DNA from: Nitrospirota bacterium
Lineage (GTDB): Bacteria; Nitrospirota; Thermodesulfovibrionia; Thermodesulfovibrionales; SM23-35
DNA: 64,000 nt
NCBI GenBank assembly: GCA_013388455.1
Contig: JACAFF010000005.1
Span: forward strand, 62,001 to 126,000
Reading direction: 5' to 3'
In this document: in pieces, positions 9,024 through 56,992 of the stretch
Layout of the letters: every line of letters starts with the position of its first letter
Position numbering within the stretch: position 1 is the stretch's first letter
Position numbers and translations under genes: made by a program
The notes under the pieces: model-generated
Databases searched by the model: none
What the model was told of the DNA's origin: nothing
The model's input: the letters and a program-made list of their open reading frames with translations, nothing else

Positions 9024-9100
9024 GGCGGTGTAGCTCAGTTGGTTAGAGCATGCGGCTCATATCCGCAGTGTCCGGGGTTCAAATCCCTGCACCGCCACCA
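9024..9100 (+). tRNA. tRNA-Met (CAT), probably elongator
   Basis: 77-nt cloverleaf: acceptor GGCGGTG/CACCGCC, D-arm GCTC...GAGC, anticodon stem TGCGG/CCGCA around loop CTCATAT with anticodon CAT at 9058-9060, T-loop GTTCAAAT, encoded CCA. The first acceptor pair is G-C, so it is not an initiator. A lysidine-modified tRNA-Ile2 also carries CAT and cannot be wholly excluded, but the anticodon-arm sequence resembles bacterial elongator tRNA-Met. Confidence 0.93.
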
Positions 9101-9208: not shown

Positions 9209-10525
9209 ATGTGTCGAGTTATTGAGCAGTTATTCTTACACAATTGGCGTCATATTATATTTCTATTGATATCAATCTTATCCCTCAATGGATGTGCTAC
9301 AATGAAAAGCATTCAGGAAGCACCGTTACCTTCTCCAATTTATTCGGATAATTATTTAGAACGAAATGAGTTTTCGATTGAACAAGGAGATGATGTCATT
9401 GGCCGTTTGGCAGTTATAAGGCTTGAAGAGGGTGATACACTGCCTGATATTGCAAGACACTTCAGCCTTGGAATAAATGCTATTACTGCAGCAAATCCAG
9501 GCATAGATATATGGGTGCCTGAAGCCGGAGAGAAGATCATTTTGCCACTAAGTTTTATTTTGCCTGATGTTCCAAGAAAAGGTATTGTGATCAACTTAGC
9601 CACAATGAGGCTTTTTCAATTTAAAGGTAATAATAAGTCATTAGCAGTATCGACTTATCCTGTTGGCATCGGAACTGAAGAGCGACCCACACCCTTAGGT
9701 AAAATGCATGTGGAGCGTAAGGTTATACAGCCGACGTGGTATGTGCCTGCCTCAATAGCTGAAGATCATCGAAAAAAAGGCGATCCTCTTCCCTCTGAAG
9801 TTCCACCTGGACCTAAGAATCCTCTGGGAGAGTACGCTCTATATTTAAGTAAACCGACTTATTTGATCCATGGCACTAATAAACCGTCCAGCATTGGTCT
9901 TAGGGCAACTAACGGCTGTATAAGACTATATCCGGAAGACATAAAAAGGCTATTCGAAAGCACCCCTATTAAGACACCTGTACATATCGTTAACCAGCCA
10001 TATCTCTTAGGCCAACGTAATGGAGTAGTTTATATGGAAGTTCATGTGCCCTTTGAAAAATCAAATGCTGAAGAGTTAAAAAAGATATACAGGAAATTGA
10101 GAAATATTGAAAAGGAATCTGGGCGTCCGATTGACTGGAGCAAAGTTGAGCAAGTAATAGCCGAAGCTCGGGGAATTCCTGTCCCCATTTTCAAGATCCA
10201 TCAAGGAAGTGAAAAAGGATTTCAAGAAACTATAGAAGTCAAGCATCCTGATAAATTGTATGGTAAACCAGAGATACCAGAACTTAAAACAGACGCATGG
10301 TATGTTTTAGCTGCTAAGATGTCTGACAAGATTGATGCTATGAGGATTGCAGCTATTATCAACCATCAGGGCCCTCAAATACCTGCAAGGGTATTATCAA
10401 CGAGTGACAGCTATCGTGTAATTACTGGCCCGTTCGATGATATCAGTGAGGCAAAAGATGTAGTCAAACGCTTGAAAGTTGATTTGGAAATTGATGGCAT
10501 CTTGGTTGAACCTATCAAGGAGTGA
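9209..10525 (+). CDS. L,D-transpeptidase lipoprotein with LysM and SPOR-like domains
   Basis: Cell-wall enzyme of the YkuD family (ErfK/YbiS/YcfS/YnhG type) that makes or uses 3-linked peptides and can attach a lipoprotein to peptidoglycan. The lipoprotein signal ends at LNGC (Cys29). A LysM module lies at about 72-112, the YkuD domain at about 125-265 with catalytic His221 (HGTN) and Cys237 (TNGCIRL), and the last ~75 residues (from AWYVLAAKM) look like a SPOR peptidoglycan-binding domain. A TATAAT at 9191-9196 sits 12 bp before the ATG and there is no Shine-Dalgarno site, so the leader is very short. It lies 65 bp upstream of the Lpp-like gene. Confidence 0.88.
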   Translation: MCRVIEQLFLHNWRHIIFLLISILSLNGCATMKSIQEAPLPSPIYSDNYLERNEFSIEQGDDVIGRLAVIRLEEGDTLPDIARHFSLGINAITAANPGIDIWVPEAGEKIILPLSFILPDVPRKGIVINLATMRLFQFKGNNKSLAVSTYPVGIGTEERPTPLGKMHVERKVIQPTWYVPASIAEDHRKKGDPLPSEVPPGPKNPLGEYALYLSKPTYLIHGTNKPSSIGLRATNGCIRLYPEDIKRLFESTPIKTPVHIVNQPYLLGQRNGVVYMEVHVPFEKSNAEELKKIYRKLRNIEKESGRPIDWSKVEQVIAEARGIPVPIFKIHQGSEKGFQETIEVKHPDKLYGKPEIPELKTDAWYVLAAKMSDKIDAMRIAAIINHQGPQIPARVLSTSDSYRVITGPFDDISEAKDVVKRLKVDLEIDGILVEPIKE

Positions 10526-10548
10526 TAGATAATTGCCATAGTCAACCC

Positions 10549-10586
10549 TGCTATAATAAGATAAACTTAGCAGAAAGGAGGTGATT
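10549..10586 (+). promoter_or_regulatory. Extended -10 promoter and strong RBS of the Lpp-like gene
   Basis: TGCTATAAT at 10549-10557 is an extended -10 element; no good -35 is seen at 16-18 bp. It is followed by AAAGGAGGTGAT (about 10575-10585), one of the best Shine-Dalgarno sites in the window, ending 5 bp before the ATG at 10591. The pair suggests high expression, as expected for an abundant structural lipoprotein. Confidence 0.5.
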
Positions 10587-10590
10587 AAAG

Positions 10591-10935
10591 ATGAAGAAGA
10601 GTCTATTGATGTTCTCAATAATGATTATTATTGCTATTGCTGTAGTGGGTTGTGCAACAAAAGGTGACCTTGCACGGGTAGAGTCACAGGAAAAGCTGAT
10701 TGATGCTAAAGCTGATCAGGCAGTTCAGGATGCGCAGGCTGCCAAGACTGCAGCCGATGCCGCAACGTTAAAGGCAAATGAAGCTGCAGCCCGCGTAGAA
10801 GAAGCCATAAGGAGGGCAGAGGAAAGAGAAAGAATCGCAGAGGAAAAAGAGAGGATTGCAGAGGAGAAGGCTAAGATCGCTGAAGAAAAGGCAAAACAGG
10901 CTGAAGCCGTTTTCCAAAAATCAATGAAGAAATAA
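10591..10935 (+). CDS. Small Lpp/OprI-like coiled-coil outer-membrane lipoprotein
   Basis: 114 aa. The signal peptide ends in a lipobox with Cys21 (VVGC). The mature part is one long helix rich in Ala/Glu/Lys: an alanine-rich stretch (about 45-75), then four heptads of the type ERIAEEK / AKIAEEK. It ends in Lys-Lys, as Braun lipoprotein ends in the Lys used for covalent attachment to peptidoglycan. Members of the Lpp/OprI group form trimeric alanine-zipper coils between outer membrane and wall. Its position between two YkuD L,D-transpeptidases supports the same role, which remains inference. It is about twice the mature length of E. coli Lpp. Confidence 0.82.
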   Translation: MKKSLLMFSIMIIIAIAVVGCATKGDLARVESQEKLIDAKADQAVQDAQAAKTAADAATLKANEAAARVEEAIRRAEERERIAEEKERIAEEKAKIAEEKAKQAEAVFQKSMKK

Positions 10936-10978
10936 AGCAATCTTATGAGATTTTAATTCTATCTTTATCGGTATAGAA

Positions 10979-11015
10979 AGGAAGTGGAAGGGTTTTGAAG
11001 ACACTGCCACTTCCT
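10979..11015 (+). terminator. Inverted repeat, possible terminator of the Lpp-like gene
   Basis: AGGAAGTGG (10979-10987) and CCACTTCCT (11007-11015) form a perfect 9-bp stem with a 19-nt loop, 43 bp after the lipoprotein stop. No clear T-run follows, so it may act as an mRNA 3' stabiliser instead. Confidence 0.35.
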
Positions 11016-11097
11016 GTATTTCCATAAGTTTAATATACTATATAATTCGGATATATATGAGTGAGAAGAATTGTTTTGCAATCATTAAAAAATATTA

Positions 11098-12087
11098 TTG
11101 AAAAACGTGAAGGCTTATTTGAACAAAAAGCAAAGTAGATTAAGTGAGCCTCTTTACTTTTTTATTATCTGCATCATAATAACACCAATTCTCATGTGCG
11201 GATGTAGTCATTCCAGAGAAATCTTCAAAGAAGCGAATGATTTTTTTAACCAGGGGAACTACAAAGCAGCTTTGAGCAAATATGAGCAGATTATTGAAAA
11301 ATATCCTTCGGTTGAAGACAGAGTTCTTTTCGAAATGGGTATTATTTATGCTTACCCACGAAATGAACAAAAAGATTACCAGAAATCTCTGGAATGTTTT
11401 CAGAAAATAATAAAGGATTACCCGACAAGTGAATATAAGCGTGACAGTGAGATGATGATATTTCAAATCCATAATGTCACAATTAAGGATAAAACAATTG
11501 TTACACTGAAAAAACAGATTGAGACGTTCCAGCAAGAAGTTAAAAACAAAGAAAATGAAATTACTATACTGCAGGACAAGATTAGAGCACTTGAACAAGA
11601 AGTTAAAAGCAAAGAGGATGAGATTACTAAATTGCAAAAAGAGGTTTTTATACTAAAGAAAGGACAGGCAGACAAGGTTCTGATAGAAAAGAAAGAACGG
11701 CGATTGACGTTGTTATCAAAGGGAAAGGTAATAAAAACATACAGAATATCAATTGGAGGAAACCCGGTAGGTCCAAAAGAAAGGCAAGGTGATAACAAGA
11801 CCCCAGAGGGGACCTACATTATCGATTCAAGAAACAGAGACAGTCATTATCACCTGTCTCTTCATATTTCCTATCCAAATGAGAAAGACAAAAAGCGAGC
11901 AAAAGAACTTGGTGTTTCTCCTGGCGGAGACATAATGATCCATGGCATCAAGAATGGTTTCTCGTGGGTTGGTGATTTTCACACAAGAATTGACTGGACA
12001 AATGGGTGTATTGCAGTTACGGACGAAGAAATAGAGGAAATTGACAAGTTAGTGCCGAATGGTACGATTGTTGAGATAAGGCCATAG
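11098..12087 (+). CDS. L,D-transpeptidase lipoprotein with TPR and coiled coil
   Basis: Second YkuD-family protein of this locus, of different architecture. The lipoprotein signal ends at MCGC (Cys36). A tetratricopeptide-like region covers about 40-120 (EANDFFNQGNYKAALSKYE...), a repeated coiled coil about 133-190 contains two related copies of EVKxKExEITxLQ, and the YkuD domain runs from about 195 to the end with His282 (MIHGIKNG) and Cys304 (TNGCIAV). The start codon is TTG at 11098; a GTG three codons later is an alternative. No Shine-Dalgarno site is evident. The extended coil could let it span the periplasm to reach the wall. Confidence 0.85.
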   Translation: MKNVKAYLNKKQSRLSEPLYFFIICIIITPILMCGCSHSREIFKEANDFFNQGNYKAALSKYEQIIEKYPSVEDRVLFEMGIIYAYPRNEQKDYQKSLECFQKIIKDYPTSEYKRDSEMMIFQIHNVTIKDKTIVTLKKQIETFQQEVKNKENEITILQDKIRALEQEVKSKEDEITKLQKEVFILKKGQADKVLIEKKERRLTLLSKGKVIKTYRISIGGNPVGPKERQGDNKTPEGTYIIDSRNRDSHYHLSLHISYPNEKDKKRAKELGVSPGGDIMIHGIKNGFSWVGDFHTRIDWTNGCIAVTDEEIEEIDKLVPNGTIVEIRP

Positions 12088-12143: not shown

Positions 12144-12494
12144 TGGTGGAGGCGGCGGGAATTGAACCCGCGTCCGAAAGTACTACTCTCAGGCTTCTAC
12201 ATGTTTATCCTGCTTTTTCAATCTCGGATGATGAACCGCCAGCAGAAAGGCTTTTCACCATCCCATCTCTTTAAATCTTGCCTTAAGATAAAGAGAAGTC
12301 TCTTAAGGCCAGCCTGCTTTATGACACTGACACCTGAAACACAGACAATTTCAGGGCAGCGTGCTGCTTAGTTATTTAAGCAGCAAGTGCCAGTTCGTTA
12401 TTGGCGTTTGTGTTTGTTTCCGCCTTTTTACGTGGTGACGGAGCCACGACATGCAACCTGATCCTCGTAACCCCCGTCGAGCCCTTTCGCCCCC
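12144..12494 (-). ncRNA. ssrA: Transfer-messenger RNA
   Basis: One-piece tmRNA of 351 nt. The ends pair as a tRNA acceptor: GGGGGCG at the 5' end with CGCCTCC plus ACCA at 12144-12154. The T-arm GGGTTCAATTCCC and the 5' GGGCTCGAC segment are recognisable. The tag reading frame (12423 down to 12376) reads AETNTNANNELALAA then TAA, with the ALAA end recognised by ClpXP-type proteases. It lies 18 bp downstream of smpB on the same strand. Two apparent ORFs crossing this stretch are not genes. Confidence 0.97.
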
Positions 12495-12512: not shown

Positions 12513-12956
12513 TCACCTATTTTTCATCCTTTTTTCTATCTCTCTTTTTGCTTCCCTCTCCTTAATCGTTTCCCTTTTCTCAAAAAGTCTCTTGCCTTTT
12601 GCAAGCCCAATCTCTATCTTAGCAAATGAATCTGTAAAATAGAGCTTTAGAGGCACCAGAGTGTATCCTTTTATAAGTGTCTTCCCTGCAAGACTATTTA
12701 TCTGTTTCTTATGAAGCAGGAGTTTTCTTGTTCGTAGAGGGTCATGGTTCATAATATTACCATGACTGTAAGGACTTATATGGCAGTTAATAAGAAAGGC
12801 TTCGCCGTTTTTTATGAGTACATAACTGTCTCTAAGATTTGCCCTTCCTTCCCTGAGAGATTTTACTTCTGTTCCCAATAAAGATATGCCAGCCTCTATG
12901 GTCTCCTCAATATGATAATCATGATAAGCCTTCCTGTTCTGACATACAATCTTCAT
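12513..12956 (-). CDS. smpB: SsrA-binding protein SmpB
   Basis: Partner of tmRNA in rescuing stalled ribosomes. 147 aa with the family landmarks [26 protein letters not shown], the [11 protein letters not shown] loop and the basic C-terminal tail ([23 protein letters not shown]). The tail mimics the mRNA path in the ribosome. It is directly upstream of ssrA, a common arrangement, and 28 bp downstream of ugd. There is no Shine-Dalgarno site; a TAAAAT -10-like hexamer ends 6 bp before the ATG, as at other first genes here, although read-through from ugd is also possible. Confidence 0.97.
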
Positions 12957-56894: not shown

Positions 56895-56992
56895 GGGAGT
56901 GTATAGGGTTCTGGTGTCCCTCCTGGACTTCAAATCCAGTGTTGCCTGTTACAAACGGGCAGGGTGGGTTCGATTCCCACACGCTCCCGCCA
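56895..56992 (+). tRNA. selC: Selenocysteine tRNA (TCA)
   Basis: 98-nt tRNA-Sec: 8-bp acceptor GGGAGTGT/ACGCTCCC, D-stem AGGG/CCCT, anticodon stem CTGGA/TCCAG with loop CTTCAAA and anticodon TCA at 56930-56932, long variable arm TTGCCTGTTACAAACGGGCA, T-arm GGGTTCGATTCCC, encoded CCA after discriminator G. Extended acceptor and long extra arm are diagnostic. selA lies about 6 kb downstream on the other strand. Confidence 0.97.

Follow-up and report, generated by a model that had tools for sequence, protein, structure and literature searches.

Three lipoprotein genes in a row

The window analysed here is a 64,000-nucleotide stretch from a Nitrospirota bacterium (contig JACAFF010000005.1, positions 62,001 to 126,000 of the forward strand). 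It contains three neighbouring genes on the plus strand, which we call LDT1 (9209-10525), Lpp (10591-10935) and LDT2 (11098 or 11119-12087). The middle gene encodes an Lpp-like lipoprotein and the outer two encode YkuD-domain lipoproteins, as the family profiles confirm; all three lie at the place and on the strand given by an original prediction made from the letters alone. The genome of 2.1 Mb is 99.4% complete and contains only two YkuD genes, both in the trio, and a single Lpp above cut-off, which also lies in the trio. Because these are the only such genes in a nearly complete genome and because their order is kept across two phyla, the trio is more than a chance grouping. Our preferred reading, which we hold to be probable, is that these genes form a portable cassette for tethering the outer membrane to the peptidoglycan, with its own attaching enzyme, LDT1, and a probable detaching enzyme, LDT2.

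The putative strap, Lpp, is an alanine-zipper lipoprotein of the Lpp/OprI type with 114 amino acids. It scores 62 bits against NCBIfam NF040598 ('Lpp/OprI family alanine-zipper lipoprotein', cut-off 43) and 39.8 bits against Pfam PF11839 (cut-off 23.1). The lipobox VVGC places the lipid-bearing Cys21 at 10651-10653, leaving a mature protein of 94 amino acids, and the C-terminus reads Ser-Met-Lys-Lys (SMKK), with the last Lys at 10930-10932. All 89 distinct Lpp homologues encoded in trios end in SMxK with Lys as the last residue, so the C-terminal Lys, whose conservation the original prediction had named as a check, is invariant. In Dickeya, an Lpp with a C-terminal Lys-Lys is attached to peptidoglycan (review PMC12729407).

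LDT1 (438 amino acids) is predicted to be an outer-membrane lipoprotein and to act as an L,D-transpeptidase of the LdtA/B/C/E type, as judged from Pfam and NCBIfam profiles, an orthologue alignment and BLAST. Its start (MCR...) is kept in the orthologues. Behind the lipobox with Cys29 (9293-9295) follow a LysM domain (residues 74-113, 9428-9547), the YkuD domain (residues 124-260, 9578-9988) and a C-terminal SPOR domain (residues 362-433, 10292-10507). YkuD and SPOR exceed their Pfam cut-offs at 82.9 and 38.5 bits, while LysM, at 20.7 bits against a cut-off of 20.9, falls 0.2 bits short. The predicted catalytic pair, His221 (9869-9871) and Cys237 (9917-9919), was correctly named from the start, and Cys29, His221, Cys237 and Arg239 are invariant in an alignment of 13 orthologues. 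LDT1 carries the transpeptidase-type GC-I-R motif; the HGT...GC-x-R motif and the N-terminal LysM-like region that define the LdtA/B/C/E type are both present. In a BLAST comparison with six YkuD proteins of E. coli, LDT1 matched LdtB (178 bits), LdtA (172), LdtE (163) and LdtC (153) at 34-40% identity.

The scores for LdtB, LdtA and LdtE lie close together across Lpp-attaching and 3-3 cross-linking enzymes, and a point that weighs against an attaching role is that LDT1 is nearly as close to LdtE, a 3-3 cross-linker, as to LdtA and LdtB. The three genes could be only loosely related peptidoglycan genes, LDT1 making mainly 3-3 cross-links and Lpp being a free structural lipoprotein. The E. coli LdtE lends this some weight: it resembles LDT1, its gene is convergent with lpp, and its activity is to form 3-3 cross-links and not to attach Lpp (PMC8263019). 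We nevertheless regard such a loose association as improbable, given the invariant C-terminal Lys of Lpp, the fact that LDT1 is the sole Arg-type YkuD enzyme in the genome, and the tight conservation of gene order without other neighbours described below.

Conservation and spread of the trio

We surveyed Lpp-family matches and their surroundings in 395 genomes of the phylum Nitrospirota. About 51 Lpp places were found, about 41 of which are adjoined by a YkuD gene in one of two layouts. The first is the trio of the window, present in about 15 genomes; in one of these (G008) it is split, with LDT1 at the end of one contig and Lpp-LDT2 at the start of another, and in one it is cut by a contig end. 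The second and commoner layout is a convergent pair, in which an LdtE-like gene of about 300 codons without SPOR faces an Lpp that mostly ends in ELQQKK. Such pairs occur in G003, G007, G010, G011, G014 and G017 (loci L098-L103) and in many other genomes of the phylum, and G011 and G358 have both the pair and the trio.

The convergent pair has a counterpart in E. coli MG1655 (b1677-b1678), where an LdtE-type enzyme is likewise encoded directly beside lpp. The original prediction had described the E. coli genes as scattered; this holds for ldtA, ldtB, ldtC, ldtD and dpaA, which lie elsewhere, but not for ldtE, which is convergent with lpp at a distance of 63 nt. The trio differs from the pair in that its genes share one strand, its Arg-type enzyme carries SPOR, a DpaA-type gene is part of the locus, and its Lpp ends in SMKK, where that of the pair ends mostly in ELQQKK.

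In a second survey, the LDT1 alignment was used as the query over named genomes and returned 124 relatives. The best 80 of them, which we examined, belong to Nitrospirota and Desulfobacterota (Geobacter, Desulfuromonas, Syntrophus and others). The NCBI phylum labels of 'Deltaproteobacteria bacterium' records read Myxococcota and were not relied on. The full trio in the order LDT1, Lpp, LDT2 is present in 63 of these 80 loci, and at least 6 more have permuted trios, in the order Lpp, LDT2, LDT1 or LDT2, LDT1, Lpp (L208 and L218; L184, L198, L202, L225, L232 and L235). Most of the remaining loci are cut off by the end of their contig, or their Lpp was missed by the strict lipobox filter. As a side observation, locus L133 (G269:C123:2000-10500) shows a third layout, in which a possible LDT2 domain without TPR lies head to head with LDT1, and LDT1 converges on Lpp. 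The third survey used the Lpp model alone on 146 genomes of the Desulfobacterota class to which Geomobilimonas luticola belongs. Lpp was found in 41 of them, and the best 30 loci are trios without exception (30/30). Conservation of the neighbourhood, the other check that had been named for the original prediction, was thus seen whether the search began from LDT1 or from Lpp. Cultured Geobacterales with the cassette include Geobacter sp. OR-1, Geomobilimonas luticola and Oryzomonas japonica.

In about 17 of the 63 trios, the LDT1 and lpp reading frames share 4 nt at their junction, which points to a single operon and argues further against a loose association of the three genes. A search for a fourth conserved partner gave none, as even the most frequent cluster of neighbouring genes occurs in 8 of the 80 loci, and since the flanking genes are not conserved, we take the three genes as the unit. 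Together with the invariant C-terminal Lys, the conserved trio supports the earlier proposal of a self-contained tether locus whose enzymes are themselves lipoproteins.

Several observations suggest that the cassette was transferred between phyla. The PBP2 of the window is 39-47% identical to the PBP2 of cassette-bearing Desulfobacterota and 51-67% identical to those of its own phylum, while its LDT1 is 64-72% identical to most Desulfobacterota copies and 66-80% identical to those within the phylum. A tree of LDT1 and LDT2 together rejects a single Nitrospirota clade (approximately unbiased test, p 0.026). In addition, the cassette is patchy, being present in 3 of 20 genomes of its own family, and its flanks are not conserved.

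In the window, the cassette is preceded by a tRNA-Met gene (9024-9100, plus strand) and followed by the tmRNA gene ssrA (12144-12494, minus strand), both located by ARAGORN; beyond the latter lies smpB (12513-12956, minus strand), named by eye from the list of open reading frames. Both tRNA-Met and tmRNA genes are common insertion sites for mobile DNA. We tested whether cassettes generally sit beside tRNA genes and rejected this, as a tRNA is present in the stretch at few of the 58 other loci. The window also has a selenocysteine tRNA gene at 56895-56992.

The active-site class of LDT2

LDT2 is a predicted lipoprotein with TPR repeats, a coiled coil and a YkuD domain (68.5 bits, Pfam), as originally proposed. 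Translation probably begins further downstream than the listed TTG 11098; we favour TTG 11119 as the start because the orthologues begin with M(G/S)KKQSR, which matches it. The predicted lipid-bearing Cys36 is encoded at 11203-11205. A helix of about 75 residues (residues 114-188, 11437-11661) separates the TPRs from the YkuD domain (residues 193-327, 11674-12078), which is of the DpaA type. The protein ends about 25 residues past the catalytic Cys304 and has no extra C-terminal domain. In the taxonomic family of the window's organism, we also observed free-standing YkuD proteins of about 170-205 amino acids (L039-L048) that are 51-58% identical to the LDT2 domain and lack the TPR and the coil; genomes with the convergent pair often encode such a protein, on a contig other than that of the pair.

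The original prediction took both YkuD proteins for L,D-transpeptidases. This agrees with the motif of LDT1, whereas the active site of LDT2 falls into a different class, although its His282 (11941-11943) and Cys304 (12007-12009) are intact and had been correctly identified. The motif of LDT2 is GC-I-A: at the second position past the catalytic Cys it has Ala (Ala306, 12013-12015) and not Arg, as do 72 of 72 homologues. Transpeptidases have Arg at this position, while DpaA-like proteins have Ala or Asn (PMC8263019). The closest of the six E. coli YkuD proteins is DpaA (63.5 bits, E 2e-15), followed by LdtC at 28 bits, and LDT2 has no close relative among LdtA-E. A second L,D-transpeptidase, which would attach Lpp or make 3-3 cross-links, would account for the YkuD fold with its intact His and Cys, and structural alignment scores to true L,D-transpeptidases match those to any other class; the invariant Ala and the E. 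coli comparison make this unlikely.

E. coli DpaA detaches Lpp from peptidoglycan (PMC8263019), and several residues point to a similar enzyme here. Lys227 of LDT2 (11776-11778) corresponds to DpaA Lys83, mutation of which abolishes DpaA activity (PMC10653827), and is kept in 72/72 homologues. Met280 (11935-11937) corresponds to DpaA Met133 and is Met in 71/72. The position of DpaA Tyr109 is Tyr in 64 and Phe in 6 of the 72, and Gln86 is kept in 65. Considering the GC-I-A motif, the rank of DpaA as best relative and the retention of the Lys83 and Met133 positions, a hydrolase, acting either to detach Lpp or to trim its acceptor, is a more likely identity for LDT2 than a transpeptidase. We therefore assign LDT2, as likely, to the hydrolases of the DpaA/carboxypeptidase class.

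Within this class, the main alternative is an LD-carboxypeptidase of the Csd6/Pgp2/Bd1075 type. Such an enzyme would remove the D-Ala of the tetrapeptide and thereby destroy the donor of LDT1, limiting Lpp attachment rather than reversing it. These proteins share with LDT2 a YkuD active site without the transpeptidase Arg, and Lys83 is common to DpaA and LD-carboxypeptidases (PMC10653827). The same study reports a Trp in LD-carboxypeptidases where DpaA has Met133; this Trp of the aromatic D-Ala pocket is replaced by Met in 71/72 LDT2 homologues, as judged by sequence alignment alone. When solved structures are ranked by sequence against LDT2, DpaA (8ikr) comes first at 39.8 bits, ahead of Pgp2 (26) and Bd1075 (21.5). 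LDT2 further differs from Csd6, Pgp2 and Bd1075 in being a lipoprotein, in having TPR and coil, and in the position of its gene next to that of Lpp. The missing C-terminal domain also speaks against a carboxypeptidase, and for a carboxypeptidase it is not obvious why the coil should follow Lpp length, as described below.

Several points weigh against reading LDT2 as a DpaA-like amidase. The DpaA-specific Lys130 and Tyr131 are not kept in the homologues, being Gly in 72/72 and Asp or Asn in 71/72, respectively, and DpaA Tyr131Ala keeps 4% activity (PMC10653827). The best NCBIfam model, NF040599 (LdtF_DpaA_YafK), gives 47 bits over the YkuD part only, against a full-length equivalog cut-off of 365. 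Finally, a Foldseek search with the model of the LDT2 domain, whose active-site loops are of low confidence, ranked Bd1075 (6e-8) and Pgp2 (4e-7) first and DpaA 11th (1.2e-5). VIA-align 2 tied all YkuD classes at Z 12-15, and DpaA was not among the matches listed. Two AlphaFold models have low confidence at the active site, where loops have a predicted local distance difference test (pLDDT) score under 60, and structure failed to discriminate between DpaA, carboxypeptidase and transpeptidase. With its score under the NCBIfam cut-off, LDT2 is not filed as a DpaA orthologue. Weighing both sides, we infer that LDT2 is probably an amidase that releases Lpp; a carboxypeptidase is in our view the less probable reading but the strongest of the alternatives.

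Lpp length, the LDT2 coil and the proposed tether

The Lpp proteins of the trios vary in length in a regular manner. The mature lengths are 73, 80, 87, 94, 101 or 108 residues in 83 of the 89 distinct proteins and 69, 76, 83 or 90 in the other 6, so that they fill only two of the seven residue classes. Phase-breaking Lpp come largely from permuted trios (L202, L208, L218, L232 and L235). About 35 length changes are seen on the LDT1 tree, of which 3 break the seven-residue phase and about 32 are whole heptads; the chance of at least 32/35 heptad changes at 1/7 each is about 4e-24, a rough value in that the changes were counted on one tree. The steps themselves are not mysterious, because a coiled coil requires heptad register. 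A 21-bp tandem repeat in the lpp of the window (2.4 copies, 10816-10865, plus strand; Tandem Repeats Finder) encodes whole heptads, and such a repeat is a plausible, simple route to length changes of this size.

The variation is unusual when compared with an earlier survey, which describes Lpp length as almost constant, with long forms (99 amino acids or more) in Geobacter (PMC8824477). The Geobacter Lpp found here belong to the cassette; the passages of that survey consulted here give only their length and do not describe linked enzymes, heptad steps or a correlation with an LDT2 coil. When E. coli Lpp is extended by 14 or 21 residues, the periplasm becomes 3 and 4 nm wider, respectively (PMC5736177).

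Lpp length co-varies with the length of the LDT2 segment that links TPRs and YkuD domain (Spearman 0.74, n=89). When relatedness was corrected for by independent contrasts, computed on the LDT1 tree, r was 0.63 (permutation p <1e-4, n=89), and it was 0.45 without the five strongest contrasts. The TPR part of LDT2 showed no correlation with Lpp length (contrasts r 0.04). The LDT1 linker, taken as a control, gave a weak contrast correlation of 0.31 that was gone once five contrasts were dropped. Co-variation of the coil without co-variation of the TPRs is expected if Lpp and LDT2 must reach the same place, and supports, with moderate confidence, an action of LDT2 at the wall end of Lpp. Two considerations temper this: a strict independent-pairs test gave about 4 pairs for and 0 against, too few for significance, and the result is a correlation. 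A bolder reading, which we put forward tentatively, is that the coils of Lpp and of the outer membrane-anchored release enzyme LDT2 co-evolve as matched rulers, Lpp mostly by heptads, so that the active site would sit where Lpp meets the wall, and that the trio moves between phyla as a unit setting the membrane-wall spacing.

Returning to the tether cassette, we propose that Lpp would be lipid-anchored in the outer membrane and span to the peptidoglycan as an Ala-zipper coiled coil, probably a trimer. LDT1, which LysM and SPOR would keep at the wall, would join the side chain of the C-terminal Lys of Lpp to meso-diaminopimelate (meso-DAP). LDT2, a lipoprotein presenting its DpaA-type YkuD domain on a long coil, would most likely cut the Lpp-DAP link, and Lpp attachment could thus be reversed as cells grow or meet stress.

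The same three protein kinds make up the Braun lipoprotein system of E. coli (Lpp, LdtA/B/C and DpaA): an Lpp with a C-terminal Lys, an Arg-type YkuD enzyme and an Ala-type, DpaA-related one. The cassette differs in that its genes adjoin, whereas ldtA, ldtB, ldtC and dpaA lie at a great distance from lpp; in that LDT1 has SPOR and LDT2 has TPR and a long coil; and in that its Lpp precursors range over about 90-136 amino acids in heptad steps, in contrast to the fixed 78 of E. coli. Moreover, the E. coli enzymes are listed as soluble (PMC12729407), while those of the cassette are predicted lipoproteins. No published account of the linked cassette was found in the open-licence literature, which is a weak negative. 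The parts are of known kinds, but as far as the searched literature shows, there is no earlier description of their linkage, of the enzymes as lipoproteins, of an Lpp that varies by heptads or of the matching coil. What is new is the same-strand trio with its detachment-type enzyme and its long, heptad-stepped Lpp; that an Ldt gene is linked to lpp is not new in itself.

Most of what is known about covalent attachment of the outer membrane to the wall comes from E. coli, in which the genes of the attaching and detaching enzymes are separate from lpp and Lpp hardly varies in length. Here, a strap, a fastener and a probable unfastener are found together as a small unit that could be reconstituted. 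Many bacteria of soil and groundwater carry the trio, and it is present in cultured Geobacterales, whose periplasm houses electron conduits. Its natural series of Lpp, from 69 to 108 mature residues mostly in seven-residue steps, with an LDT2 coil that co-varies, would make the membrane-wall distance testable through natural variants.

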